Of a DNA stretch of 25,980 nt, positions 3 through 25,960 are shown in pieces. Location: positions 1,470 to 27,449 of IMG/VR virus record IMGVR_UViG_3300030110_002972. The stretch is one strand, 5' to 3'. Positions within the stretch are counted from its first letter, which is position 1, and the number at the start of each line of letters is the position of its first letter. A program made the position numbers and the translations under genes. Below the pieces are notes generated by a model. It did not search any database. It was given only the letters and a program-made list of their open reading frames with translations, and had not been told where the DNA came from. Origin of the DNA: a virus.

Positions 3-2348
3 AAGGTTGCTCAAGCAATTGAAAATGAATGGTTTGGTAAAGATACTGGCATGCACAGATTTAACACAAATCAAAGTACTTTCCATAAATTAAGATTATA
101 CGCTAGAGGAGAACAATCAATACAAAAATATAAAGATGAATTATCTATTAATGGTGATTTGTCTTATTTAAATTTAGACTGGAAACCAGTACCTATTATA
201 CCTAAATTTGTAGATATAGTTGTAAATGGTATTGCAGATAGAAGTTATGATATAAAGGTATTTTCTCAAGATCCATATGGTGTTGACAAAAGAACAAAGT
301 ATATGGAATCTGTATTAAGAGATATGAATACTAAAGAGTTAAATGATTTTTCTCAAGAACAATTTGGTATTAATTTATATGAAAATAATCCAGAAAAATT
401 ACCTGAGTCAAAAGAAGAACTTGAATTACATATGCAACTTACCTACAAACAATCTATTGAAGTTGCAGAAGAACAAGCTATTAATACTATATTTCAAGGT
501 AATGATTATGATTTAACAAAAAGAAGATTTTATTATGATTTAACAGTTTTAGGTATTGGAGCTGTAAAAAATAATTTTTCTAAATCTGAAGGTGTTACTG
601 TAGATTATGTTGATCCAGCTAATTTAGTTTGGTCGCATACTGAATCACCTTATTTTGATGATATATATTATATTGGTGAAGTAAAAAATATCCCTGTAAA
701 TGAAATAAAAAAGCAATTTCCTAATTTAACGAATGAAGATTTAGAAGAAATAATTCAACAAGGTATACAGAAAAATTCTGTAGGTAATGTGGGTATTGCT
801 TATGAAGATGAATTAGATACTAATATTGTTCAAGTTTTATATTTTAATTATAAAACATATATGAACGAAGTATATAAGATTAAAGAAACAGCAACAGGTG
901 CTTCTAAATTATTAATTAAAGATGATTCATTTAATCCACCAGCTGATGTTTATGATGCAAATTTTGAAAAAGTAGATCGTTCAATAGAAGTATTATATGA
1001 GGGTGTTTTAGTTGTTGGTACAAAAAAATTATTAAAATGGGAGTTAGCAAAAAATATGCTAAGACCTAAAAGTGATTATACTAAAGTTAAAATGAATTAT
1101 TCTCTTTGTGCGCCAAGAATGTATAAAGGAAAAATTGAATCGTTAGTGAGTAGAATGACTAGTTTTGCTGACATGATACAATTAACTCATTTAAAATTAC
1201 AACAAGTATTATCAAGGATGGTACCAGATGGTGTATACTTAGATGCTGATGGTTTAGCGGAGGTTGATTTAGGTAATGGAACAAATTATAATCCACAAGA
1301 AGCTTTAAATATGTTCTTCCAAACTGGTAGTGTTATTGGTAGATCATTAACACAAGATGGTGATGGTAATCCTGGTAAAGTACCTATACAAGAAATACAA
1401 AGTGGTAGTGGTGGTGCTAAAATGCAATCATTAATTGGTTCTTATAACTATTACTTACAAATGATGCGTGATGTAACTGGTTTAAATGAAGCAAGAGACG
1501 GTAGTACTCCTGATAAAAATGCTTTAGTTGGTGTACAAAAAATAGCAGCAGCAAATAGCAATACAGCTACAAGGCATATTTTACAAAGTGGATTATACTT
1601 AACACATCAAATGGCTGAGGGTATATCATTGAGAGTTGCTGATATTATAGAATATTCACCAACTAGAGATGCTTTTATACAAGCAATTGGTTCACATAAT
1701 GTTGGTAGTTTAGAAGAAATGCATAATTTACATTTATATGATTTTGGTATATTTATTGAACTAGCGCCAGATGAAGAAGAAAAACAAATGCTTGAAAATA
1801 ATATACAAGCAGCGTTAGCTAAAAATAGTATTGAACTAGAAGATGCTATTGACGTGCGTGATGTTAAAAATTTAAAACTTGCAAATTCTTTATTAAAATT
1901 AAGAAGAAAAAAGAAGATTCAATTAGATCAACAAATGCAGCAACAAAATATACAAGCTCAAGCACAAGCAAACGCTCAAGCTCAACAAGTTGCGGCGCAA
2001 GCTGAGGTTCAAAAAAATCAAGCAATAACACAGCAAAAAGCTCAATTAGAAAGTATTGAAGCTCAAAATGACTTACAAAAACTACAAGCTGAAGCACAAT
2101 TGAAAAAAGATTTAATGAATCATGAGTTTCAAATTAACATGCGTTTAAGGCAGATGGAAATCGATTCATTAAAACAAAAAGAAACAAATAAAGAAGATCG
2201 TAAAGATGAAAGAACTAGAATTCAAGCATCTCAACAATCTGAATTAATTGATCAAAGAAAAACTGGTAAACCACCTAAAAGATTTGAGTCAACAAGTAAT
2301 GATATATTAAGTGGGGATTTTGATTTAGGTATGTTTGAACCAACGTAA
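3..2348 (+). CDS. Portal protein, 5'-partial (open at window start)
   Basis: Putative portal (head-tail connector) protein, which would form the dodecameric DNA channel at one capsid vertex. The frame has no stop from base 3 and reads KVAQAIENEWFGKDTG before the ATG at 51, so that ATG is probably internal and the gene begins outside the window; 781 residues are visible. The N-terminal part (segment around LNLDWKPVPIIPKFVDIVVNG) resembles portals I recall from uncultured marine podovirus-like phages. The last third is a long predicted helix very rich in Gln and Ala (about bases 1920-2130), followed by a charged Lys/Arg/Glu stretch and a short acidic tail ending in DFDLGMFEPT. Known portals such as that of P22 have a C-terminal helical barrel, and this helix could be its equivalent (inference). 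The position upstream of the scaffold-like and capsid genes supports the call. Confidence 0.82.
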   Translation, partial: KVAQAIENEWFGKDTGMHRFNTNQSTFHKLRLYARGEQSIQKYKDELSINGDLSYLNLDWKPVPIIPKFVDIVVNGIADRSYDIKVFSQDPYGVDKRTKYMESVLRDMNTKELNDFSQEQFGINLYENNPEKLPESKEELELHMQLTYKQSIEVAEEQAINTIFQGNDYDLTKRRFYYDLTVLGIGAVKNNFSKSEGVTVDYVDPANLVWSHTESPYFDDIYYIGEVKNIPVNEIKKQFPNLTNEDLEEIIQQGIQKNSVGNVGIAYEDELDTNIVQVLYFNYKTYMNEVYKIKETATGASKLLIKDDSFNPPADVYDANFEKVDRSIEVLYEGVLVVGTKKLLKWELAKNMLRPKSDYTKVKMNYSLCAPRMYKGKIESLVSRMTSFADMIQLTHLKLQQVLSRMVPDGVYLDADGLAEVDLGNGTNYNPQEALNMFFQTGSVIGRSLTQDGDGNPGKVPIQEIQSGSGGAKMQSLIGSYNYYLQMMRDVTGLNEARDGSTPDKNALVGVQKIAAANSNTATRHILQSGLYLTHQMAEGISLRVADIIEYSPTRDAFIQAIGSHNVGSLEEMHNLHLYDFGIFIELAPDEEEKQMLENNIQAALAKNSIELEDAIDVRDVKNLKLANSLLKLRRKKKIQLDQQMQQQNIQAQAQANAQAQQVAAQAEVQKNQAITQQKAQLESIEAQNDLQKLQAEAQLKKDLMNHEFQINMRLRQMEIDSLKQKETNKEDRKDERTRIQASQQSELIDQRKTGKPPKRFESTSNDILSGDFDLGMFEPT

Positions 2349-8566: not shown

Positions 8567-11500
8567 ATGCCAGAATTAAAACATCATTTTAGAGCCGGCA
8601 AAATGAACAAGGATCTGGATGAGAGACTTGTTCCTAACGGTGAATATAGAAACGCTGAAAATATAGAAATTAGTACATCTGAAAGTTCTGATGTAGGTTC
8701 TGTGCAAAATGTTTTAGGTAACACTAAAAAGTTAGGAAAAACTTATGATCCAAACACAAAAACAGTAACAGCTAACTGGAGTTCAAATTATATTGATGAT
8801 TTAACTAACCCAAAGTGTATAGGTTCAATCGTTGACACTCAAAATGATAAAATTTACTGGTTTATTACTTCAACTAATGTTGATACTATAGCAGAATATA
8901 ACGAAACTGAAGGTATAATAAGCCCAGTTATTGTTGATAAGAATAGTATATTAAATTTTAGCGAAGACTACCCAATAACAGGTGTAAATGTTATTGAAGG
9001 TATGTTGTTGTGGACAGATAATCAGTCAGAGCCTAAAAAAATAAAAATATCTTCATTTAAATCTGGTTCTACAGATTTTAATACTCACACAACTTTTAAT
9101 AGCGTTGCTTTTACAGAAAATGATATTACTGTAGCTAAATTATCTCCATTAAATCCTCCAACTTTAACAATGTCTTCATCAAGAAGATCAGGCGTAGGTA
9201 CTGGTACAACGCCTGCTGAAACAAAGTTTGATTTTGTAGATGATAACGAGAATGTTACCGCAGAGGGTGAAAATATAGAGTTAACATTTACAAATGGAGA
9301 GCCTGACTACAAAGAGGGTGATAATTTAGTTTTAAGTTACACGCGACCTGATGATAACGTAACGTTTGAGGTAAAAGTTAAAGTAAGACAATTTCCTAAT
9401 GGTTTACTAAATAGCACTGGAACAGGTGTAAGTAAAGTTGGCGTAACAGTTGAAACTATACCAACAACTTTGCCAGATGGTAATTTACAATGGGAGGTTT
9501 TATTAGATGAGGAAGAAGCTTTCTTTGAAAATAAATTTGTAAGATATGCATATAGATGGAAATATAAAGATGGAGAATATTCATGTTATTCACCATTTTC
9601 TGAGGTTGCTTTTATTCCTTCAAACTTTAAATATCAAACAAAAACAGGTTTTAACGAAGCTTTACAGAATAATTTAAGAAGTTTAACTGTTAATATACCA
9701 GATGATAGACCAACAGATGTTGAGCAAATTGATATATTATACAAAGAATCTAATAACAACCTTGTTTATGTTGTAGATGAGTTAAAAGAAAACGCAGATG
9801 GAACGTTTCCATCTTTAAGTTATGAAGTTAAATCTGAAATAATAGGTAGCGTTGTTGAAGCTAATCAGCTATTAAGACCTTGGGATAATGTACCTAAAAA
9901 AGCAAAAGCACAAGAAGTAACAGCTAATAGATTAATATATGGTAATTATTATCAAAACTATGATATATTAAAGCAAAACTTACCTGTTATTCAAACTGAA
10001 GTTACAAGATCAAAACACATAGGATCGACAACACCTGACAGTGTTACAATAACACAAGCTGGCCAACCTGCTAAATCATTAAAATCACAAAGAACATATC
10101 AAATTGGTGTTGTATACAAAGATGCATACGGTAGAGAAACACCTGTATTTTCAAATAAAAATGCAGCAAAATTAATTGGAAAAAACCACGCTAATCAGGT
10201 TAATTCTTTAAAATGCAAACTAACTAATACAGCTCCTGAGTGGGCAACACATTATAAGTTTTTTGTAAAAGAAACATCTAATGAATATTATAATTTAGCA
10301 TTAGATAGATTTTATGAAGCAGAAGATGGTAACATATGGTTATCATTTCCGTCTTGTGAAAGAAATAAAGTTGGTGAAGATAGTTATTTAATATTAAAAA
10401 AGAGACATAATTCTGATGAATTTGTTAGTGACGCGGCTAAATATAAAGTGATTGATATTCAAAATGGACCACCAGAATATTTAACTATAAAACCGCAAAC
10501 AGTAGCAACCGCCACGTGTAAAATTAAAAGTGACGCTTCGGATAGACCAACCGTTGGAACTAAAACATTTGAAGTAAGAGGTCCCACGCCTGAATTTAAT
10601 GATAGGTTTGCCAAAGGCTTTACCGCGAATGCTAGTATAAGAATTATTACATCTGGCGGTACAACAAGAAAATATAAAGTAGAAAGTGGTGGACCAATTG
10701 GAGAGTTTAATGGTAGTGGTAATCCAAAAGAAATTTATAGAATAAGTTTATTAAGATCGTTTATGCAAGAAGATGAAGACGTTCTTGCTGCAACATATTT
10801 AGAGGCTAATGATTCAATAAAAATAGAATTATTTGAAGATAAAAAAGTAAATAAACCAGAATTTTTTGGAAAGTTTTTCGTAAAAATAAAAAGAGATGCT
10901 GAGTTAAATAAAAATATTATAACCTCTTTTCCTGGATTAGATACTGAATTTAGTGTAGTTGACACAATGCCAATATACAAGGAAATACAAAATGAATTTA
11001 AAGATGCAAAATGGAGCGTTGATGGGAAAACACCTAAAAGAGAAGTTGAAAGTGCAGGTTGGATAGATAATGTAAATGGAAGAGGATTACTTCACCCCGA
11101 TAGGTTTAAAGCACAAACTAATTTTCATCCATCAGGATCAACACATGAGTTTAGTTTTTATTATGCTGGTATTAACTATGGTGACGACTGGAGATCACCA
11201 GACAACATGAATGCTATATGTGAACAAACTAATAAAGATGACAAAATTGGTTGTGAGAAAGATAAAGACCAAAATAATCACGGCGGTAGAGCACATAATA
11301 AAGCCGATTCACTTAATCCGTTTTTAGGAAAAATAACAGAGAAAGGTACAGTATTTAGTTTTACCAATGTAGCAGGTGAAGAAAGTAGCAAAAACTATGA
11401 GGTAACAGATTCTTCAATACGCTATGAGTTTAGAGTTAACGATAGTAAGGATAGAAGAAAAACTGCAGCAATGCGTAGAAAATATACTATTAAATTTAAA

Positions 11501-14500
11501 GTTCAAGGTGATACTGATGGTTATTCAGATGATTTTGCATATGCAAATGACTCTGGTTTAACAGGAAGAATAAATCAAATTAATTTAAAAGAAGTAAATA
11601 TAATACCTGGAGAAGAAGTTATATCAACAACAAATCCAGCTGTTTGGGAGACAGAGCCAAAAGAATCAATTGATCTTGACTTGTATAATGAAATTAGTGG
11701 AGCATATCCAATAATACGACCAGGTATGACTGTTAGTGGTACTGGTATTGCAAGTTCTACAACAATAGCGTCAGTTACTGATGCCAACACTTTTACATTG
11801 TCACAAAATACAAACGCAGCTATTACATCTGGAACTATAACATTAACAGACAGTAAAGGTATATATAGTTTTGATGTTACAGCAACTGCATCAAACAGCT
11901 CAACAACTGTGACCGTATCAGATGGTCAAGTACATGGTCAAAAACAAACTATAGACTGGTACAACTGCTATTCATTTGGTAATGGTGTTGAGTCAAATAG
12001 ATTACGTGATGATTTTAATGCTATATTTATAGACAAAGGACCAAAGGTATCAACTGTATTAGCAGAACAATATAAAGAAGAACATAAACAAAATGGTTTA
12101 ATATTCTCAGGTATATTTAACTCAACAAGTAGTATTAATAGATTAAATCAATTTATACAAGCTGAGCCAATAACAAAAGATATAAACCCATATTATGGCA
12201 GTATTCAAAAGTTACATGGTAGAAGATCAGATCTATTAACGTTTTGTGAAGATCAAGTTTTAAAAATACTAGCAAATAAAGATGCATTATTTGAAGCTGG
12301 GGGTAATCAGCAGTTAACAGCAACAAATAGAGTTTTAGGCCAATCAATTCCTTATGCTGGTGAATATGGTATATCTAAATTTCCACAGTCTTTTGTTTCA
12401 CATGCGAATAATGTGTTTTGGGCAGATAAAGCAAGAGGTGTTGTGTGCACATTAGGTGCAAATGGTGTTTTTCCAATATCGTCACAGGGTATGGCTGATT
12501 GGTTTAAAGACAACTTAGCTATAGCAACTAATATTATAGGTACATATAATCAAAGTAAAAGCTCGTATAATATAACATTAAAAGGAACTACAAATTACAC
12601 ATTAAGTTATGATCCAAGAGTTGCTGGTTGGGTAAGTTTTAAATCTTTTATTCCAGAGTCTGGTTGCTCGTTAAACAATAAATACTACACGTTTAGTAAT
12701 GGTGAAATGTGGATACATAATAATGAAACAAGAAATAATTTTTATGGTACACAATATCAATCCGGGGTAACAGTATTATTAAATGATGCGCCAGAATTAA
12801 TTAAAGGCTTTAAGACATTAAATTACGAGGGTAGTGATGCGAGAAGATACACATACGCTGGTTCAATTAGTGGTACAGCTATTGGCAACGAAACAATGGA
12901 AGAGCTTGTTGCTGAAGGTTATACCGCAGCACAAATAAACAGTTTAACAGAAACAGCGACAAAAGGTTGGTATTGTAATTCAATCACAACTAATGAAGCG
13001 ACTGGTGCAATACGAGATTTTAAAGAAAAAGAAGGTAAGTGGTTTAATTATTTAAAAGGTGATACCACAACATTATCTAACCTTGATTCAGAAGAATTTT
13101 CAGTACAAGGTATTGGTCAATTGTCATCAATAAGTGGTGATACGTCAGTAACTGGATACGAAGCTGCAATAACTGTTGCTGCTGAAACTGGATTAACTAT
13201 AGCCAGTGTTACAGATACAGCTGGCAGTTCACATTGGGTATTAGACGGTAATGTTATAAGAAGATATAATAATGCTAGTGGCTTTAATGTAAATTCATTT
13301 GATGATCTGTTGATAACATTTACAGCTGATAATGGTTATGCATTACCAAGTAGTCAAAGTATAACATCGCAGAGTGTAACTGCATTTCTTGATGTTGATT
13401 CAGGTGATTCAGATTGGAATAGTTCAACTGGCGTATTAAGACTTGAATTTGCAAACCTACCTACTTCTGCTGATAGTAACCTGGGGGTTAATTTAAATTT
13501 AGCAAACGGTGGTGTTTTAAAAACATATACAGTTAGCGGCACGTTTATTACAAACGAAGTTAATACAACAACAGCTAGCGTTGAATCAACATATCAATCA
13601 TCTGCCACAGCGTCAGGTGCATCATCAACAGCAATGACAAGAACATTTACAGCTGCTAGTGGTCATTACTTTAAGGAACTACCCACTTGCACGGTAGCTA
13701 CACAAGATAACGATCCAGAAACAGCTTATACAATAGCAACGTCTGACACAACAACAACAATGGTTGTTAAGGGTGAATCACAAACAATAACAACAGCTAG
13801 AGCGTTTACTATTACATACAAGCATGGTGCAGAAAATAGAACTGGTGATGTATTAATTTTTGGTGCGCAAGCAGAAAGAAAGTGGGTTGAAAGAACAGAA
13901 GTTGTAGCAATAACAGGAATTCAAGCTGATAATGCATCAACTATTCCAATAGAAGGTGATACTAGAGTTATAGCTATATCCGCAACAACAGGTACTACAT
14001 CACCTACATTTCAATTAAAAAGAACAATAGGAACGTGGAGTGAGGCTGATTTAGACTTTGCAGATTCAGCGCCAAAATACTGGGATGGTGATGCGTGGAA
14101 TTTAACACCAACAACAATTACTTGGGCGGCAAGCACTGGCTTTACAAGTTATAGGGTTACAGAAACTTACGGTATAATGTCAACATCAAAAAGATATAAA
14201 TACGAAGTAATTGCTGTTAATCCAGGTTTATTATCTTCAGACTTTGAGGAGATTGCAAATCCAGTTATATTGTATCAATATGGCGATGTAACATTAACTT
14301 CCTTTGCTAAAGATGATCCAGCTGTTGCAAAATCAGATGGAACAAGAATATTAAATTATGACGTGGCTTATGACGCTTCAGCTAGTGGTACACATAAAAC
14401 ACAAAGTGCCAGCGATACTATATCATATGGCGCTAATGCAACCCCAACGTCTGGTAGTGAAAAGAATGTTTTATCCGTGTCTCATATTATAAAATCAAGA

Positions 14501-15765: not shown

Positions 15766-16464
15766 ATGGAAGAATTAATATATATAATAGATTTATTAAA
15801 ATATTTTTTATTAGGTAACCCTGATATTAATGTTAACTATAGCATTGCTCCAATGGCAATCATGGGTGCTTTAAAGCTGGGTAGTACGTTTATTGGTAGA
15901 GGAGCAAGAAGAGAAGAGCAAAGGTTAGCAGATGCGGAGTTTACAGCAGCAAAAAGAAGAACAGAAAACTTAGATACGTCAAACGTATATGCTGGATTAC
16001 AAAATACTATGGAAGATCTCACTGTAAACACACAAGCGGCGGATTTTGCAGCTCAACAACAGCAGCAAGGTTTAGCTAATACAATGGGTGCGTTAAGTGG
16101 TGCTGCAGGTGGTAGCGGTATAGCAGCTTTAGCACAAGCAATGGCTGGTCAACAATCACAAAATCTACAACAAGCATCAGCAAGTATAGCTCAACAAGAA
16201 CAAAGAAATCAAATGGCAGCAGCGCAACAGGGTATGCAAATACAACAATTAAAAGGTCAAGGTGAATTATATTCACAAAGAGCAACAGCTCAAAAAGAAG
16301 AGGGTTTAATGGGTGCAGCTATGGGTAGAAAACAAGCTGCAGACGCAGCAACAGCGGCAGCAACACAAGCACAAATTGGCGCTGTGTCTTCAATGGTAGC
16401 GCCTGGTGGAGATTTAGGTGGTGGTCTTCTTAAAGGTTTAGTTGGAAAACTTGGTGGACCTTAA
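15766..16464 (+). CDS. Internal virion (ejection) protein, T7 gp14-like in character
   Basis: A 232-residue Ala/Gln/Gly-rich protein. Residues 5-17 are hydrophobic (LIYIIDLLKYFLL) and residues about 28-42 are another short hydrophobic stretch (MAIMGALKLGSTFIG) followed by the basic GRGARREEQRLADAEF. The rest is a long helix-prone region with many Gln and Ala (for example FAAQQQQQGLANTMG and LAQAMAGQQSQNLQQ) and Gly-rich breaks, ending in Gly-rich GGDLGGGLLKGLVGKLGG. Small podovirus internal proteins that pass through the cell envelope with the genome have this composition and lie just before the large internal proteins, as here. A start at the later ATG near 15853 (MAIMGALK) is possible; the upstream ATG at 15766 has the usual A-rich leader and is preferred with moderate confidence. 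Confidence 0.6.
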   Translation: MEELIYIIDLLKYFLLGNPDINVNYSIAPMAIMGALKLGSTFIGRGARREEQRLADAEFTAAKRRTENLDTSNVYAGLQNTMEDLTVNTQAADFAAQQQQQGLANTMGALSGAAGGSGIAALAQAMAGQQSQNLQQASASIAQQEQRNQMAAAQQGMQIQQLKGQGELYSQRATAQKEEGLMGAAMGRKQAADAATAAATQAQIGAVSSMVAPGGDLGGGLLKGLVGKLGGP

Positions 16465-16483
16465 AAAATTAAATAAAAAAATT

Positions 16484-17470
16484 ATGATAAATACAAAACT
16501 ACTACAATCAGCAATTAATAATTATGGAGATTTAGAACAAACGATAGAACAAGCTCAAAAGCAACAAGTTATTGGAGCTAAACAAGATTATCTTGAGTTA
16601 GACAGGATAGACCAAACGCTACCAGGTAACTCAGACATGAGCCAAGGTACGAAAGATGGTAAAACTGGTATTATGAAAAAAATACAAAGTATAAAGCCAT
16701 CTGACAATACTTTTATGAGTCAAGTTGGTGAATACATGAAAAATATACATAAAATGTCTAACGCTAACGATTCATCTGTTATAGATATTATTAACAGCGC
16801 TGTTAGCGGTGTAGCTCCATTAATGATTGAAGATGGAAAAAAAGTGTTTGACTTTGGTGGTAAAAATAAAATATCAAAAAATCAAATCTCACAAATGATG
16901 GATAGTATTGTTGCTCCAGCAATGAGGCAACATAATGATTTAATTAATAGTGCCGCAAACATTGCTAAGCAAGTAACTGGTGGTATTGTACCAGAATCTA
17001 AAATTGATCAAGCCGTTGAGACTATAATGAATACGCCTTTTAATGCACAAGATACTGATCCAATGGGTATTATTGATGGTAAAAAATCTTTTGCTGTTGA
17101 TAGCCTTGGTGGTAAACCAAGCATGAGAGATTACTTTAAAAATTCTAAAGAATTTAATACAGCGTTTGATGCACTTAAAGAAGGCGCTAGTGACATGTTT
17201 GATGAAATGTTAAAACCATATTTAAAAGATGTATACTTTAGTCCAGTTCTGCAAGAAAAAGTTGCAGAGCAAACTAAGCCTGCTATTGATGACAAAGCAA
17301 GCGGTGTGCATGCGTACTGGGATTATACATATGGTACCGGTGAAGACACTGAGTGGTCACAAGTTCCTGAAGAAAGAAAACAAAAAATAAGAGAAGAATT
17401 TAAAAAATCAAAAACAGAAAAAGCTAAAACACCACCGTCTTGGAAGAATTTAATGATAAATACTAAGTAA
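16484..17470 (+). CDS. Putative internal virion protein of unknown function
   Basis: A 328-residue soluble, largely helical protein. A longer reading from a TTG at 16442 would overlap the previous gene by 23 bases and add MENLVDLKKLNKKI; the ATG at 16484 is preferred because it follows the A/T leader AAATAAAAAAATT and leaves a normal 19-base gap. Visible features are an N-terminal Gln-rich helix, a Gly/Asp/Lys loop around GNSDMSQGTKDGKTGIMKK, a middle helical part (NQISQMMDSIVAPAMRQHND), and a charged C-terminus. No enzyme motif is seen. Its place between the gp14-like gene and the giant ejection protein suggests it is a second internal core or ejection component. Podovirus ejection modules usually have three proteins, which fits, but this is inference. 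Confidence 0.55.
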   Translation: MINTKLLQSAINNYGDLEQTIEQAQKQQVIGAKQDYLELDRIDQTLPGNSDMSQGTKDGKTGIMKKIQSIKPSDNTFMSQVGEYMKNIHKMSNANDSSVIDIINSAVSGVAPLMIEDGKKVFDFGGKNKISKNQISQMMDSIVAPAMRQHNDLINSAANIAKQVTGGIVPESKIDQAVETIMNTPFNAQDTDPMGIIDGKKSFAVDSLGGKPSMRDYFKNSKEFNTAFDALKEGASDMFDEMLKPYLKDVYFSPVLQEKVAEQTKPAIDDKASGVHAYWDYTYGTGEDTEWSQVPEERKQKIREEFKKSKTEKAKTPPSWKNLMINTK

Positions 17471-17480
17471 ATTAATAGAT

Positions 17481-20400
17481 ATGGCAAATGGACAATTACA
17501 AAAAAAACTTGGTATTAATATTGGACCTACTCAAACTTTTAAAATTGGAAATGACGTTGTAAATTACGATGAATTATCACTAGAATTAGGACCTGAAAAT
17601 GTTGATAAAATAATTGATGATAATTTAAAAAATAATTCTAATTTTAATATTGCGAAAGATTCTGATATTATAGAGGTTAATAAAGAAAAAGAAAAAACAA
17701 AGGATAAATTTGCTCTAGAAAATCCCATATACAAAGCTGACTCTGATGGATCAGATTTTGTTATGAATTTTGAAAGAGATTTTTTAAATGAAGATTCGGA
17801 TGTTGGTACATATGATAGTGTTACAACAGAAGATATAGAACAAAATATTAATGATCCTTTAATACAACTTCCTAATGGTAAGATTGTAAAAAAATCAATT
17901 GCAGCAAGATATGATTTACTAAAATCATTAGAAAATTCAGTTTCGGCAGTTCCGCCAGAAGAAATATCCCCCTTAAGTGAAAACATAAGTGAAGTAGCAG
18001 ATAACTTTGTTAAAAAACAAGCTGATGGTGTTGTTGGTGAGGATAATAGAAATTCTAAAAGTTTAATAGAAGAATCAAGGGAATTATTTACTATACTGCG
18101 TGATAATGATGAGTTTTTGAATAAAGAATTTATGGCTGTGCATTTACACAAAAATAAAGATAAAATAACAGAGCATGCGCAAGATATAGCTGGTAGATTT
18201 GACTTTAATACTGAAGAGGGTGTAAATAATTTTAATGAAGAACTTAATAAATATATTCATAAAGAAATTTTAGTTCCAGCAACAGAAACAGATAAAAATT
18301 TTTTACAAAGAAATAAAGATATTCTTGATGTTGTGAATCAAAGATATGCTAAAGGTATTGAAAGTAAAACAGCTGAAGAAAAAAGAAATGAAATTTTACC
18401 TGACTGGTTAGAGGGTGATGGTTTATTAGCAAGTATGGGTCAAAGTGGATGGAAGTTTTTAAAACAGCAGCAGGGAAATTGGTTTGGTATGATGAATATT
18501 ATAGATGCAAAACAAATGGAAGCGCATAATGAATACCTAACTAATATTGATCTTAAAACCGATGAATTAGGTGAAGATGGTATGGTATATCAAAATCCAA
18601 AAACGGGCGAAATTAGTCGTGGCATGACAGCAAGCATTAGGAATAAAGTTTCACTAAAAGATGCTAAAAAAAATGTAAACCAGTTAAAAGTAAAAAATCA
18701 ACTTGAATTTTTAGAAGAACTAACTAAATCAAAAAAATATCAAAAAATAGTTGAAGAATTAGGATCCGCTGAGTTACTAGCAAAAGATTTTGATATTAGA
18801 AATATAGGATCAGGGCCAATATTTGATACAGATGCTAAAGAAGTTGCAGATGCTTTTATTACGCAAGGTGGTCAATTTTTACTGAGTTTTGTTACGCTTG
18901 GTGGTAATACCATGTTTCAAGAGTCTGTTGGGGCTTATAATGATATAGTAACGGGAAAAGCAGCAGAAAGAGCTTTTCCAGATGATCCAAAAGCCGAAGA
19001 AAAGTTTAATGCGTTGTCTGTAGAAGAGCAAGGTAAACACATGATGGCTGTCGTTGATGATGGTGAAGCTGATATAAATACAGCTTTAGCAACTGGTGGT
19101 ATTAACACAGCTATAGATTTAGTTGGTAATACGTTCGTTGGTTTGAAAGCAGTAAAAGGATTTGCGGAAGGTGGTAAGGGGTTAATAAAAAATCTAATTA
19201 GAAGTCAATATAAAAAAGGTTTAAAGAAAGTTGGTGCTGGAGCGGTTGGAACTGCTACCACATTAGGTGTTGATGGTATAGCAGAAGCATTACAGGAAAT
19301 AACATCAATGACAACTGTAGGGCAGTCTTTGGAAGATGAATTCTCTAAAGATGGATTTTCAGGATTTGTAGGTAGGGCCATGAAAAACAATAGACAAATA
19401 TCAGAATCATTTGTTCAAGCTATTGTAACTGGTGGTGGTATAACACAGGGTGCTACAGCGATTGGTACAACAAAAAATACTATTGGTAGTATAATAAAAA
19501 GTAATGATCCTAAGGCGTTAGAACATTATTACAAGCAACAAGAAGCAAAAATTAAATTAATGGATCCTAAGTTACAAGAGGCAGCTTATAAAGAACTTGA
19601 TGCCGCTATGGACTTCTCACAAAATACTAAGTACAAAAAACTTGATCCAAAGGCTAAAGAAATGGTTTTTGATAATCAACTTCAAATAGAAGCAGAAAAT
19701 ACTAGATTACAAGAGTTAGAAAAATTAACTAAAAAATCTAATCAAAAAGGTAGGCCAACAAACGCACAGCAACAAGCTGAGGTAGATATTCAAGCGTCAA
19801 TTGATAAAATTACTGAACTTGAAAACTCAAATAAAAAAGAAGTTGATATACTTGATTATAACACAACTGGGCAAGCTATAATTAAAAATATAAATGAAAG
19901 TAAAGAAGGAGAATTTAAAAACAAAAATGCTAAAAGTTTTAAAACTAAAAAAGACTTTAAAGAATTTATAACAAATAAATTTAAAGGTAAAACAATACCT
20001 AAAGACTATCAAAATTTTCTTGATGGTGATTCAAATGGCGTTGTAATTACAGAGAATGGCATTGATAACGCATTTTTTATAAATGAAAGAGTTGCTGAAA
20101 ATATTAGAAAAGGTGATGCGTTTGCTAAAAATGTTATACATCATGAAGCTACACACTTATTATTATCTGGCATGGATGATACAACAGTTCAACAAACTGT
20201 AAATAATATTAAAACAGAATTAAATAACTCTACTGATCCAGCTTTAAAACAAGCGGCGGAAACTGTTAATGCTGTTTTGAAAGGTAGAGATTATTCAGAT
20301 CAATCAATTAGAATACAAAACGAGGAATATTTAGCAGCACTATCCGATGTCGTCGCGGTCGCTAAAGGGACAGATTTAAATTTAGAACAAACTAGCACTT

Positions 20401-23400
20401 GGAGCAAAATTGGTAATCTATTTGGCGGTTTAGTAAATAAACAAATGCCAGGTTTTGATGTTAAAGGTTTACAAAGTGGAGATTCAGCTTTAGAATTTGT
20501 TAAAAAATTTAATGAATGGAAGGGTAAAGGCCCAGTTATCAGTTCTGATAAATTATTTAATCCAGCAAATAGAGATATACCAGCGAGAGAACAAAAATCT
20601 ATGCAAGATGATATAAACAATACTTTATTAGAAACAATAAAATCTGAACAAACAACTGATAGAGATAAAGGGCAAGCAATACAATCAATCATAGAAAACA
20701 ACCCTATAATATATAAAGCTTTAGGGTTTAATCTTGCTAAAGGTACAGTAACTCAAGCAGAAATTGATAGTGCTATTACGGCTGAATTGTTAGGTGCTGA
20801 GGGTGGTAGAGGTATAATAAATACATACGATGGATCAACTAAATTTAGTACATACTTACAAAATATTTTTAGTAAAAGAAGACAACAAGTTTATGAAGCG
20901 GCAGGTTTAGATATGAAAGGTGCGGTCACGGGTAGTTTACAAGCTGAGCAAGCGCGTGAGGTGGTGGATACTGAAGACATCACTGGTAAAGTAGACAAGG
21001 TACCTACGAGGAAAAGAGAGAAGGTTACAGAAAAGGTATTATCTAAAGAATTTAATTTTGATGGTATTGATGTTGCTGTTGCTAATCTGATGTTAGGTGC
21101 GGATTTTAAAGTACCAAAAGATTATAAGTCAGCTAAAGATATAGCACCTGCATTAACAGCTGAGCTGTTTGGAGTTGATCCTTATCAATATATGGATCCT
21201 AACAAATCATTAAAAAAATCTGATGTAATTGCGGCAAGAACATTTATAAGAAAAAACCCTGAGTTATTACACGGCTTATTACCTAACAACTTAACTACTC
21301 AAGGTAAAGCAACTGGCGTTAGGAAGTTATTATTAGATAAGTTTTATGAAAAAACTGGAAAAAGAAAAGAAGCAGCTTTAGGTAGAAGTAAACAAGGTTC
21401 ATTTGTTTTAAAGAAAAAACCATTTAATCAAAAGCAATTTTTAAAAGAATTTGGAATTATACCAGGGCAAGTTATGAAAGTAACTAATCAAACGCAACAG
21501 TCTGGAATTATATCAGCGCTAATGAATGAAACTGGTAAAATAATGACAAATCAAGCTATAAGAAAAAACCTACCTAAAGTCGAGGGAATGAGAGAAGCCG
21601 CTCAAAAATTATCAGATGGTAAATCTAGGGTTGTTTGGCAAAAAAGTTTAAGCGGCATAAAGGGTTTGAATGATATAGTAACAAAAGCTAAGCAGTTACC
21701 GCTTGATTCTAACGCTAAAAGAGATAGGGCGTTAATGAGAGACTGGTCTATTAATGAAATGCCAAAATACTTTCCAGCTAGTATTATTCTAGCTGACACT
21801 TTTGGTCCAAGCTCTAAAAGATCTGGTAAATTCTTTTTTAATAAACAAGAGAGAGATAAGATAAAAAAATTAGCAGCTAAAAATGAAAATCATAATTTAA
21901 AGCCAGAAGAAGTTATAGCATTAAAAGGTGCTTTTGGTAGTAAATCTAACACTTGGTTCAAACAAGATTTAACAAAAGGATTGTATAAAAGAAAAACTGA
22001 TAATAATACAGCTGGTATTGAGATAATGATTAAGCAGTTTAAAAAAATGTATAAGAAAAACCCTGGTAACATAAAATTTATTGCTGGCGTTTTCGCTGGC
22101 CAAGCTGATGCAACTGGACATGTGCTAAGGCAAATTGCATTACCAAATGGTGAAAGTAAAATAAATGGAGCAAAAATCAATGAACATGTTATCCCATCTA
22201 GTTGGATGAGTAATTTTATACTTGACACTATAGTAAAAAACAAACATACAAATGCTAGAATTAATTGGATAAAAGATAATTACTTTCAACTTCGTATATT
22301 AAAAACAGATGATACAAAAGTTAGTGATGCTGGTTTTACTACGGTTTTACCAACGGAATTTATAACAGAATTAGACAAAGCTATAGAGACTGGAGATTTT
22401 AGTAATGTTCCTAGTCCATTAATTAGATATGTACATCCTAAAGTTAATGCAATAAGAAATGGTTTTGATTTAAATAAAATAACATATAAAAATCAAACTT
22501 TAGCGCAATATTATAATATTGATGTTAAAGGTGTTTATATAAACAACACAACAAAAGGAATACAGCAGCAGTTAGCGTATGAAATAGAGACAAAAAAAAT
22601 AACAAAAGATCAAGCTAGAAAATATATAGATAGCTATTTAAAAATAGCTAGTGAGGTAAAGAAAACCGCAAATGTTAATTCTGCAGTTTTTAGTAATTTC
22701 TTAAACGCAGATATGAGCGTCACACAGCAGATAAAAACACTACAAAATATAGACAAAGCTTTGCGAGTAGCAAGAGACCCTAAAGCACAAGAAAAGGGAA
22801 TTACAATAGTTGATTTTGATCAAACGTTAGCAATTACAGAGGAAAAAGTTTTATATAGTATGCCAGATGGAACTACGGATAAATTGACTGCGTTAGAATT
22901 TGCGGAACAATCTGAGCAGCTACAACGCGATGGTGCCACATTTGATTTTAGTGAGTTTGAAAATGTTAAAGGTGCAACTAAAGGTCCATTTTTTGATATT
23001 GCACAGCAAATAAAAGGTAAATTTGGTAACAAAGATATATTTGTATTAACCGCAAGACCACAAGCAGCAGCTGTAGCTATACAAAGTTGGTTAAAGGGCG
23101 CTGGTTTAGATATTAAATTAGAAAATATTACTGGTTTAGAAAATGGCACACCACAAGCTAAAGCAAATTACGTCATTGAAAAAGCTTCACAAGGCTATAA
23201 TAACTTTTTATTTGCAGATGATGTTTATGCTAACGTAAAAGCCGTACAAGGTGTTTTAGACGTTGTTGATGTTAAAAGAGATGTTCAACAGGCTAGAGAA
23301 AGTAAGTTTGTAAAGATAGATGAAGAGTTTGATAAAATTATAGAAGAAAACACTGGCTTAAATAGAAACGCAACGGTTAGTGTTGCTAAGGCAAAGCAAA

Positions 23401-25358
23401 TTGGAGCAACAAGAGGTAGTTGGTTAAAAGATTTCTTCTTAGCACCATCATCTGAAGATTTTACTGGACTAATGTATACACTAATAGGTAAAGGTAAAAA
23501 AGGTGAAAAGCAATTTGAGTTTGTTAAAAATACTTTAATAAGACCATTTGCTAGGGGTATTAGAGATTTAAATGCAGCTAAACAGGTTATATCTAATGAG
23601 TTTGCTAATTTAAAGAAAATTTATCCAGATGTTACAAAGTCATTACGAAAGCCATCACCAGTAAAAGGTTATAATAATTCACATGCTATAAGGGTTTATC
23701 TGTGGAATAAAAACGGTATTCCAATACCTGGTTTATCAAAAACAGATCAAGCAGCTCTAGTTAAGCATGTAAATAATAATCCAGATATGAAGGTGTTTGC
23801 TGATCAAGCTGGTCAAATAACAAAGCTTGAAGAAGGATATACAACTCCAAGTAACTCATGGATGATAGGTAACATATCAACAGATATGATGGATGTAAGT
23901 AATAAAGTTAAAAGATCTGAGTATTTAAAAGAGTATTTAGACAACTATGAAAAAATGTTTACACCTGAAAGGTTAAATAAACTTGAACTTATATACGGTA
24001 GTAAATTTGTTGAAGCGTTAAATGACATGAAATATAGGATGGAGTATGGAACAAACAGATCTCAAGGTCAAGATAGAATAACACAAAAATGGCAAAACTG
24101 GGTTAACAACTCTGTTGGTGCTATAATGTTCTTTAACATGAGATCAGCGGTGTTACAGACGTTATCATCTGTAAACTTTGTAAACTGGAACGATAATAAT
24201 CCATTTAAAGCTGCTAAAGCTTTAGCTAATCAAAAGCAGTATTGGAAAGATTTTAGTTATATATTTAATCACCCAACTTTAAAACAAAGAAGAGCTGGGT
24301 TAGATATAGATGTTAACGCTTCTGAAATTGCTTCAAGAGTAGCTGATAGTAAAGATAAAATATCAGCTGGTTTAAATCACTTATTACAATTAGGTTTTAC
24401 ACCAACAAGAATAGCTGATAGTTTTGCTATTGCATCAGGTGGTGCTACGTTTTATAGAAATAGAATTGAAACTTATGTAAAACAAGGTTTAAGTAAAAAA
24501 AGAGCAGAAGAAAAGGCATTTTTAGATTTTCAAGAAATATCAGAAGCAACGCAGCAGTCAGCTAGACCTGATATGATTTCACAGCAACAAGCTGGTCCAT
24601 TAGGTAGATTAGTGTTAGCTTTTCAAGTAACACCAATGCAGTATACAAGATTAATGAAAAGATCAGTACAGGATTTAGTTGCTGGTAGAGGTGATATGAA
24701 AACACATATATCAAAGATTATATATTATGGTGCTGTACAAAATATGATATTTAATGCGTTACAAAGCGCTGTATTTGCATTAGCATTTAATGATGATGAA
24801 GAAGATGATGAAGATAAAATGTCAGAAAAAGAAAAAAGAAAAGCAGTAAGAGTAGCAAACAACATGGCTGATAGTTTATTAAGAGGTTTAGGTGTTCAAG
24901 GTGCTGCTGTAGCTACAATTAAGAATATGATTATTAAATTTTTAGAGCAAGAAAAACGTGGATACAGAGCTGATCATGCTTACACAATGATTGAAGGATT
25001 AAATATATCGCCACCGATAGGTAGTAAGGCAAGAAAAGTATACAGTGCAACACAAACGTATAAATTTAATAGAGATGCTATAAAAGAAATGGGATTTGAT
25101 ATTGACAACCCAGCTTATGAAGCTGTAGGTAATATTGTATCAGGTACTACTAATGTTCCTCTTGATAGAGTTATAGCAAATGTTAATAACGTTAGAGCTG
25201 CTATGGATAAAAATAATGCAGCATGGCAAAGAATATCTGTACTTTTAGGTTGGAACGCTTGGGATGTGGGTATACCAGATAGAGAGGTAGAAAAAGTAAA
25301 ACAAGAGATAAAAAAGAGAAAAGCAGAGGAAAGAAAGCGTAAAAAAAGTAAAAAGTAA
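17481..25358 (+). CDS. Giant polyvalent internal virion/ejection protein with metallopeptidase-like, sigma-like and HAD domains
   Basis: A 2625-residue protein, almost one third of the window. Residues 1-450 are charged and helical. Residues about 455-640 include hydrophobic segments (QGGQFLLSFVTLGGNTMFQ, then a Gly/Ala-rich stretch). A zinc-peptidase motif HEATH lies at 888-892, with Glu948/949 as possible third ligand. Residues about 1040-1150 contain YDGSTKFSTYLQNIFSKRRQ, resembling sigma-70 region 2. A HAD domain covers about 1775-1935: DFDQTL (Asp1778, Asp1780), VLTARP (Thr1857) and FADD (Asp1913/1914). Residues about 1985-2070 (FLAPSSEDFTGLMYTLIGKG) and the C-terminal part (MFFNMRSAVLQTLSSVNFVN; DSFAIASGGATFYRNR) resemble segments I recall from large marine phage polyvalent proteins. 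The C-terminus is very basic. Such proteins are packaged and injected with DNA; here peptidase and phosphatase activities may act in the host (inference). No lytic transglycosylase is visible. Confidence 0.75.
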   Translation: MANGQLQKKLGINIGPTQTFKIGNDVVNYDELSLELGPENVDKIIDDNLKNNSNFNIAKDSDIIEVNKEKEKTKDKFALENPIYKADSDGSDFVMNFERDFLNEDSDVGTYDSVTTEDIEQNINDPLIQLPNGKIVKKSIAARYDLLKSLENSVSAVPPEEISPLSENISEVADNFVKKQADGVVGEDNRNSKSLIEESRELFTILRDNDEFLNKEFMAVHLHKNKDKITEHAQDIAGRFDFNTEEGVNNFNEELNKYIHKEILVPATETDKNFLQRNKDILDVVNQRYAKGIESKTAEEKRNEILPDWLEGDGLLASMGQSGWKFLKQQQGNWFGMMNIIDAKQMEAHNEYLTNIDLKTDELGEDGMVYQNPKTGEISRGMTASIRNKVSLKDAKKNVNQLKVKNQLEFLEELTKSKKYQKIVEELGSAELLAKDFDIRNIGSGPIFDTDAKEVADAFITQGGQFLLSFVTLGGNTMFQESVGAYNDIVTGKAAERAFPDDPKAEEKFNALSVEEQGKHMMAVVDDGEADINTALATGGINTAIDLVGNTFVGLKAVKGFAEGGKGLIKNLIRSQYKKGLKKVGAGAVGTATTLGVDGIAEALQEITSMTTVGQSLEDEFSKDGFSGFVGRAMKNNRQISESFVQAIVTGGGITQGATAIGTTKNTIGSIIKSNDPKALEHYYKQQEAKIKLMDPKLQEAAYKELDAAMDFSQNTKYKKLDPKAKEMVFDNQLQIEAENTRLQELEKLTKKSNQKGRPTNAQQQAEVDIQASIDKITELENSNKKEVDILDYNTTGQAIIKNINESKEGEFKNKNAKSFKTKKDFKEFITNKFKGKTIPKDYQNFLDGDSNGVVITENGIDNAFFINERVAENIRKGDAFAKNVIHHEATHLLLSGMDDTTVQQTVNNIKTELNNSTDPALKQAAETVNAVLKGRDYSDQSIRIQNEEYLAALSDVVAVAKGTDLNLEQTSTWSKIGNLFGGLVNKQMPGFDVKGLQSGDSALEFVKKFNEWKGKGPVISSDKLFNPANRDIPAREQKSMQDDINNTLLETIKSEQTTDRDKGQAIQSIIENNPIIYKALGFNLAKGTVTQAEIDSAITAELLGAEGGRGIINTYDGSTKFSTYLQNIFSKRRQQVYEAAGLDMKGAVTGSLQAEQAREVVDTEDITGKVDKVPTRKREKVTEKVLSKEFNFDGIDVAVANLMLGADFKVPKDYKSAKDIAPALTAELFGVDPYQYMDPNKSLKKSDVIAARTFIRKNPELLHGLLPNNLTTQGKATGVRKLLLDKFYEKTGKRKEAALGRSKQGSFVLKKKPFNQKQFLKEFGIIPGQVMKVTNQTQQSGIISALMNETGKIMTNQAIRKNLPKVEGMREAAQKLSDGKSRVVWQKSLSGIKGLNDIVTKAKQLPLDSNAKRDRALMRDWSINEMPKYFPASIILADTFGPSSKRSGKFFFNKQERDKIKKLAAKNENHNLKPEEVIALKGAFGSKSNTWFKQDLTKGLYKRKTDNNTAGIEIMIKQFKKMYKKNPGNIKFIAGVFAGQADATGHVLRQIALPNGESKINGAKINEHVIPSSWMSNFILDTIVKNKHTNARINWIKDNYFQLRILKTDDTKVSDAGFTTVLPTEFITELDKAIETGDFSNVPSPLIRYVHPKVNAIRNGFDLNKITYKNQTLAQYYNIDVKGVYINNTTKGIQQQLAYEIETKKITKDQARKYIDSYLKIASEVKKTANVNSAVFSNFLNADMSVTQQIKTLQNIDKALRVARDPKAQEKGITIVDFDQTLAITEEKVLYSMPDGTTDKLTALEFAEQSEQLQRDGATFDFSEFENVKGATKGPFFDIAQQIKGKFGNKDIFVLTARPQAAAVAIQSWLKGAGLDIKLENITGLENGTPQAKANYVIEKASQGYNNFLFADDVYANVKAVQGVLDVVDVKRDVQQARESKFVKIDEEFDKIIEENTGLNRNATVSVAKAKQIGATRGSWLKDFFLAPSSEDFTGLMYTLIGKGKKGEKQFEFVKNTLIRPFARGIRDLNAAKQVISNEFANLKKIYPDVTKSLRKPSPVKGYNNSHAIRVYLWNKNGIPIPGLSKTDQAALVKHVNNNPDMKVFADQAGQITKLEEGYTTPSNSWMIGNISTDMMDVSNKVKRSEYLKEYLDNYEKMFTPERLNKLELIYGSKFVEALNDMKYRMEYGTNRSQGQDRITQKWQNWVNNSVGAIMFFNMRSAVLQTLSSVNFVNWNDNNPFKAAKALANQKQYWKDFSYIFNHPTLKQRRAGLDIDVNASEIASRVADSKDKISAGLNHLLQLGFTPTRIADSFAIASGGATFYRNRIETYVKQGLSKKRAEEKAFLDFQEISEATQQSARPDMISQQQAGPLGRLVLAFQVTPMQYTRLMKRSVQDLVAGRGDMKTHISKIIYYGAVQNMIFNALQSAVFALAFNDDEEDDEDKMSEKEKRKAVRVANNMADSLLRGLGVQGAAVATIKNMIIKFLEQEKRGYRADHAYTMIEGLNISPPIGSKARKVYSATQTYKFNRDAIKEMGFDIDNPAYEAVGNIVSGTTNVPLDRVIANVNNVRAAMDKNNAAWQRISVLLGWNAWDVGIPDREVEKVKQEIKKRKAEERKRKKSKK

Positions 25359-25675: not shown

Positions 25676-25960
25676 ATGGAAGAAATTTTAGACAAAAAAG
25701 TAGGTATAGATATAGATGGTGATAAAAAACCAGATATAAAACTCGACATTAAAAGTATTTTAATAGTCGGTGGTTTTCTTATATCAGGGGTTATGTCATA
25801 TAGTAACTTAAAACAGGAGATAGAAATAGCTAAAAATCTTCCAGAGCAAGTTAAAGTTGACGTAGAAAAATTTGATACAAAAATAGAATATCTACAAAAA
25901 GAAATTGATAAATTAGAAAAACAAGTTGATAACTTAGAAGATAAAATATATAAACGTTAA
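25676..25960 (+). CDS. Small membrane protein with Asp-rich loop and coiled coil
   Basis: A 94-residue protein in three parts: an N-terminal DIDGDKKPD loop (Asp12, Asp14, Asp16, Asp20) resembling dockerin or EF-hand-type calcium loops, a hydrophobic segment at about 25-42 (IKSILIVGGFLISGVMSY), and a Lys/Glu coiled coil from about 62 to the end (heptad-like LQKEIDKLEKQVDNLEDKIY). There is no lipobox. The membrane helix plus coiled coil layout fits an inner-membrane spanin or lysis accessory, but position alone cannot show this. It overlaps nothing, starts 4 bases after the previous stop and ends 4 bases before the next ATG. Confidence 0.5.
   Translation: MEEILDKKVGIDIDGDKKPDIKLDIKSILIVGGFLISGVMSYSNLKQEIEIAKNLPEQVKVDVEKFDTKIEYLQKEIDKLEKQVDNLEDKIYKR

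Follow-up and report, generated by a model that had tools for sequence, protein, structure and literature searches.

What does an uncultured phage encode in a single reading frame of 2625 residues at the end of its virion genes, and what might this protein do when infection starts? We addressed this question for a stretch of 25,980 nucleotides (henceforth the window) from an uncultured virus record of 27,449 bases, the phage being described as uncultured and marine. A sequence-only reading had proposed that one giant ejection-type protein joins metallopeptidase-like, sigma-like, HAD and membrane-prone parts. The features on which our analysis draws are the following.

51..2348, + strand: portal protein (phrog_6547, E 5e-145; tblastn matches to Flavobacteriia phage portals)
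8567..15379, + strand: tail protein of 2270 aa with a crAss muzzle C-terminal domain (Pfam crAss_MUZ_C, 34 bits, cut-off 27)
15766..16464, + strand: Gln/Ala-rich protein of the virion module, 232 aa
16442..17470, + strand: probable companion virion protein, 342 aa, 0 Cys, just 5' of the giant gene, in the position of phi18:3 gp121 (MS/MS) and phi38:1 gp100
17481..25358, + strand: predicted giant polyvalent ejection-type protein, 2625 aa, 0 Cys, closing the virion gene module as its last large gene
19947..20516, + strand: zincin-like metallopeptidase domain, residues about 823-1012 (69 relatives all keep HExxH...E; family members match IrrE/M78 and DUF6782 weakly)
20142..20156, + strand: HEATH, residues 888-892, putative catalytic zinc motif
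20325..20327, + strand: E949, probable third zinc ligand (invariant column E157 of alignment A5)
20592..20930, + strand: sigma-70 region-2-like domain, residues about 1038-1150 (Pfam in an ortholog, hhalign, structure matches)
20826..20855, + strand: YDGSTKFSTY, residues 1116-1125, motif resembling region 2.2/2.3
22182..22196, + strand: EHVIP motif, residues 1568-1572, in an unassigned conserved domain (EH invariant in alignments A7 and A8)
22788..23303, + strand: predicted HAD phosphatase domain, residues about 1770-1941 (D1778, D1780, T1857, R1859, K1894, D1913, D1914)
23358..25280, + strand: helical C-terminal core, residues about 1960-2600, the family anchor (44-68% mean identity in 75-residue bins)
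25281..25355, + strand: Lys/Arg-rich tail, in whose place other members have one or two DUF5763-type Cys/His modules

We verified the claimed positions. The giant is a single open frame at 17481-25358 (+) of 2625 amino acids, and the motifs HEATH (888-892) and YDGSTKFSTY (1116-1125) and the HAD set (D1778/D1780, T1857, D1913/D1914) lie exactly where they had been placed. The several membrane-prone segments that had also been proposed did not survive the analysis. The top 19-residue Kyte-Doolittle mean of the protein is 1.32, below the median maximum of 1.75 in shuffled copies of the same protein, and on this comparison we rejected membrane-spanning segments.

Portal, capsid and tail genes precede the giant gene, which sits beside virion structural genes. 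The portal protein is 25-56% identical to the portals of Flavobacterium, Maribacter, Cellulophaga and Tenacibaculum phages and of one uncultured phage. In the cultured and other relatives defined by the portal, the module likewise ends in a giant gene, whose product has 3859 aa in ctfjg026, 1829 in Panino, about 3700 in the elemo phages, 1691 in phi38:1 and 1935 in phi18:3. The annotation of the phi18:3 protein (gp123) comes from virion MS/MS, and the giants of the elemo phages and phi38:1 are annotated as structural. The portal similarity, the crAss muzzle domain and the synteny with giant virion proteins support the proposed assignment to a podovirus-like ejection module in a phage of Bacteroidetes. 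Direct homology between the window giant and the isolate giants was considered and dropped, as neither BLAST nor HMM comparison detected any overall similarity; because of this, the probable location of the window giant in the virion is read from its position. It shares the module-end place and the near absence of cysteine with phi18:3 gp123, phi38:1 gp101, elemo gp72 and ctfjg026 UOF82488, and an HExxH motif with the latter two, whereas all four lack the HAD and sigma signatures of the window giant. Two side observations concern the neighbouring genes. The listed TTG start of the companion gene overlaps the preceding gene, and an in-frame ATG 14 codons in (16442-16490; MINTKLLQ) is a likelier start. 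After the giant gene and a gene for 99 aa, positions 25676-25960 encode a protein of 94 aa that weakly matches a holin/anti-holin family (phrog_10340, E 1.6e-5).

Sequence searches with the whole giant matched nothing in Pfam, PHROG or PDB, and we therefore built families first. In the phage record collection searched, tblastn matched nothing. A search with the HAD region recovered 17 loci. In the first alignment of 17 relatives, conservation is concentrated in the HAD domain and the C-terminal core (mean identity of 40-68% within bins), and the sequence varies over the N-terminal two thirds; neither the N-terminal part of the window giant nor that of eight relatives had a credible Pfam match. 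Alignment-based searches then confirmed at least 564 and at least 585 stretches in viral contigs, and relatives of the giant are encoded on more than 560 contigs of uncultured viruses. The family thus occurs widely among such contigs, and none of the libraries that we searched assigns it. Host clues from the MAG bins of family members are mixed and unreliable. The analyses below use 131 non-redundant complete giants, the window giant included, of 1146-4044 aa. Several distinct domains follow one another on a single chain, namely a zincin motif, a sigma region-2-like segment, an EH..P domain, the HAD domain and the C-terminal core. Judged by its sequence, the window giant carries the marks of a zinc peptidase, of a sigma-factor core domain and of an intact HAD phosphatase. 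Overall, the sequence-only reading proved real and for the most part correct.

The HAD assignment is borne out by residues and by predicted fold. All eight catalytic or motif residues tested are identical in 133 out of 133 sequences, with motifs I-IV (DxDxT, T/S, K, DD) intact. Among 70 complete giants found via the C-terminal core alone, 66 have the domain and four lack it. The predicted model of residues 1730-2625 (pLDDT 80.3) matches HAD proteins, and its five best structure matches are all 3'-phosphatases of T4 Pnkp or bacterial Pnkp1 (Z 13.0 to 11.3, rmsd about 2.5), headed by the T4 Pnkp 3'-phosphatase (Z 13.0, rmsd 2.5, 126 residues). In agreement, hhalign aligned T4 PseT with the family profile at a pairwise E of 2e-4. 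With Foldseek, neither predicted model (residues 1730-2625 or 793-1262) had a match in PDB or BFVD at E ≤ 0.001. One relative (L015) has an insertion of ~130 residues after HAD motif I (HAD region 10034-11059), and its close relatives lack it.

The substrate of the domain cannot be read from the fold, as HAD folds act on many substrates. It is quite conceivable, although we would not favour it, that the domain is a nucleotide or small-metabolite phosphatase of the dNMP or phosphosugar type instead of a polynucleotide end-repair enzyme. In favour of this alternative, the Pnkp chains are followed by phosphoserine phosphatase (Z 10.4), and many other HADs at Z 9-10.4 stand among the best 50 matches listed. 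An AAA_33 5' kinase that could act as a partner was found in none of 13 near-complete relatives of 62-72 kb (L235-L246 among them). Against a metabolite phosphatase, the five Pnkp structures stand ahead of these other HADs by about 1 to 2.6 Z units. The 3'-phosphatase domain of T4 PseT (Pnkp) shares with the giant the HAD fold, the order of the motifs and an arginine after motif II; the giant differs in lacking a kinase domain and in that its HAD domain sits in a putative virion protein.

The peptidase-like claim stands for the motif and its conservation. An H[EQ]xxH motif lies N-terminal to the C-terminal core in 122 out of 131 giants, where shuffled sequences lead to an expectation of 1.6 (maximum 4). 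In alignment A5 (69 diverse sequences with a mean identity of 15%), the sole invariant columns are H888, E889, H892 and E949. The HExxH residues were used to select these sequences, and the downstream glutamate played no part in the selection. This glutamate lies 49-89 residues after the HExxH motif in the chain (median 61). The giant therefore has the HExxH motif together with a candidate third ligand, the combination that marks zincin-like metallopeptidases, and weak matches of family members to IrrE, M78 and DUF6782 agree with this assignment. The fold itself was not recovered. In the predicted model of residues 793-1262 (pLDDT 72.9), the zincin region is helical with pLDDT mostly 80-94, and no zincin was present among the 324 chains aligned in the structure search, which leaves a zincin fold unconfirmed without excluding it. 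Structure prediction, proposed as a check of the original reading, thus recovered the HAD fold and did not recover a peptidase fold. Two relatives (L021 and L023) have EExxH in place of HExxH; the peptidase site can therefore be lost and seemingly was lost there.

Several comparisons bear out the sigma-like claim. In the ortholog L011, Pfam detects Sigma70_r2 (PF04542) at 27.2 bits, above the curated cut-off of 24 and over positions 1-67 of 71; two other relatives (L014 and L065) have matches under the cut-off, and the window giant's own segment has no Pfam match. We compared 53 family segments with sigma factors from five genomes using hhalign and obtained a score of 31.2 (pairwise E 1e-4, probability 57%), where the maximum of 100 column shuffles was 12.5. 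When the whole giant was tiled, the tiles overlapping residues 1038-1150 alone stood out, at about 29, and the next tile reached 17.3. As a calibration, the free sigma factors of the relatives score 27.3 on the bacterial profile that gives the giant segment 31.2, and the giant segment scores 29.2 against these free sigma factors (null maximum 18.3). Sigma factors also head and dominate the VIA structure matches of model residues 246-358 (equivalent to 1038-1150), which include sigma-70, SigI, sigma-S and the AR9 polymerase specificity subunit. The best of these matches has Z 5.8 and rmsd 4.3 over 96 residues, a low Z that would be unconvincing alone for helical folds. T4 gp55 is the best PDB sequence match of the A5 profile (E 0.2), and the PDB profile E-values range from 0.04 to 0.2.

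The low Z and large rmsd, the hhalign probability and these PDB E-values are what one might expect of a generic helical module that has come to resemble region 2 by convergence and is unconnected to transcription. We regard such convergence as unlikely. It does not account for an ortholog that exceeds the curated Pfam cut-off, for an hhalign score well above the column-shuffled controls, for the lack of score in the remaining tiles of the giant, or for the fact that real phage sigma factors score no higher on the same bacterial profile. Homology of the giant segment to sigma region 2 is likely. In fold and motif, the modelled segment appears to resemble region 2 of the T4 late sigma factor gp55 and of sigma-70; it differs from them in being embedded in a huge chain, and region 4 was not recognised in the giant.

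The transcription genes of the 13 near-complete relatives provide context for this segment. Of these, 12 encode a complete free sigma factor, about 255 aa long. No beta'-type RNA polymerase was found in any of the 13, while all 14 control genomes were positive; the T7-type profile PF00940 was silent in the 13 relatives, as it was in its control. No RNA polymerase domain of the window giant was matched by Pfam. Since a free sigma factor occurs without a detected beta'-type polymerase, phages of this family probably rely on the host RNA polymerase, as far as gene content indicates. Four of the 13 relatives encode an RNA ligase.

Two further parts of the chain are conserved. The EH..P domain lies between the sigma-like and HAD domains (window positions 21960-22680), and EH..[PS] is present in 88 out of 131 giants. 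An HNH-like assignment of this domain was considered and set aside, as Pfam and PDB searches gave no credible match in its support. The C-terminal core likewise had no convincing match in Pfam or PDB. Behind the core, members have a Lys/Arg-rich tail, a short helical LGLT..EEDRVKKIIELQ tail, or one or two DUF5763 Cys/His modules (Pfam 33.2 bits, cut-off 26.3). We noted tail variants in L131 (locus positions 11948-12148), L106, L143 and L150, equivalent to 25281-25355 of the window. This alternating tail may serve in packaging or DNA binding.

The giant is also depleted in cysteine. None of its 2625 residues is a cysteine, and the same holds for 81 out of 131 relatives. Three or more cysteines occur in 38 relatives, and in most of these 38 they lie at the extreme C-terminus, where one or two DUF5763-type modules replace the Lys-rich tail. 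The isolate giants have 0-1 cysteines, N4 gp50 has 0 in 3500 residues, and crAss001 gp46 and gp47 have 0 and 1 (in 2341), in contrast to 17 in 858 for the crAss001 RNR, 12 in 706 for its DNA polymerase and 13 in the 2270-aa tail protein of the window. We infer that cysteine depletion is a mark of ejected proteins that cross the periplasm. If the reading of the giant given below is right, cysteine depletion combined with an HExxH site would be a simple marker for ejected giants in unannotated genomes.

We favour, with moderate confidence, the interpretation of the giant as a polyvalent ejection protein that acts on host transcription and nucleic acids. The observed basis is domain signatures, conservation, fold similarity and synteny, and from these we infer packaging, ejection, cleavage, RNA polymerase binding and the substrate. 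The giant would probably be packaged in the virion and passed with the DNA through the tail into a Bacteroidetes host. A chain free of cysteine would suit passage through the periplasm, possibly in a partly unfolded state, and packaging and ejection are probably the roles of the conserved C-terminal core and of the basic tail. Once inside the host, the giant would most likely be cleaved into working units by its own zincin domain. Its sigma region-2 module would next engage the host RNA polymerase, probably at the beta' clamp helices, and steer or block the enzyme as infection begins. Its HAD domain, which resembles Pnkp, would strip phosphates from the ends of polynucleotides or nucleotides, most likely from 3' ends left by host nucleases. 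The most specific form of this proposal, in which one ejected giant brings both a sigma region-2 module that seizes the host RNA polymerase before phage gene expression and a polynucleotide 3'-phosphatase, is tentative, and we consider it possible rather than probable. If true, it would link virion cargo to the host RNA polymerase in phages that seemingly depend on the host enzyme. The domain boundaries given here make each predicted activity directly testable.

It is rather improbable that the giant serves chiefly as a scaffold for ejection or for the virion core, as the internal proteins of T7 or P22 do, with enzyme-like domains used for virion maturation only and zincin self-processing as proposed for P1 DdrB: the highest conservation beside the HAD domain is in the helical C-terminal core and not in the peptidase or sigma part, Iyer et al. 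report that P1 DdrB is processed before packaging (PMC5512222), and the HAD domain is missing in the four C-terminus-anchored giants mentioned above, but a pure scaffold needs neither HAD residues invariant in 133 out of 133 sequences nor an HExxH..E site kept at 15% mean identity.

We compared the preferred ejection protein with known systems. Polyvalent proteins were defined by Iyer et al. in 2017, with the zincin MPTase as their commonest (hub) domain, which was proposed to cut the polyvalent chain into working units; the N4 virion RNA polymerase, with its MPTase, is counted among these proteins (PMC5512222). Like the giant, they are large multidomain chains encoded in a late or virion context, and an HExxH metallopeptidase is what they have in common. 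The giant differs by its sigma-like and HAD modules, and its C-terminal core matches no Pfam family. The words 'sigma', 'haloacid' and 'phosphatase' are absent from the main text of that survey (PMC5512222), and our literature search, with limited journal coverage, yielded no other report on the combination of zincin, sigma and HAD, consistent with the suggestion that this set of domains may be undescribed. In our best reading, the giant belongs with the polyvalent ejection proteins known since 2017 and has two modules, a sigma region 2 and a Pnkp-like HAD domain, that we did not find in that survey.

If this reading is true, injected phage proteins can carry two kinds of module beyond those already known from them. 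The virion RNA polymerase of N4 (gp50, Schitoviridae) is a T7-like RNA polymerase that is packaged and injected. It resembles the window giant in being a giant (3500 aa), free of cysteine and equipped with HExxH, whereas the window giant has a sigma region-2-like module instead of a detected RNA polymerase domain. The phage crAss001 ejects giant cargo proteins through its tail (PMC10172136). Its cargo proteins gp45-gp50 (PMC10172136) share with our system a muzzle-domain tail relative, cysteine-poor giant cargo and an HExxH motif, there in gp47; the crAss001 cargo includes a multi-subunit-type RNA polymerase, whereas no beta' subunit was detected in the relatives of the window phage. In contrast to N4 and crAss phages, the window phage would, if our reading is true, seize transcription at entry without bringing a polymerase.
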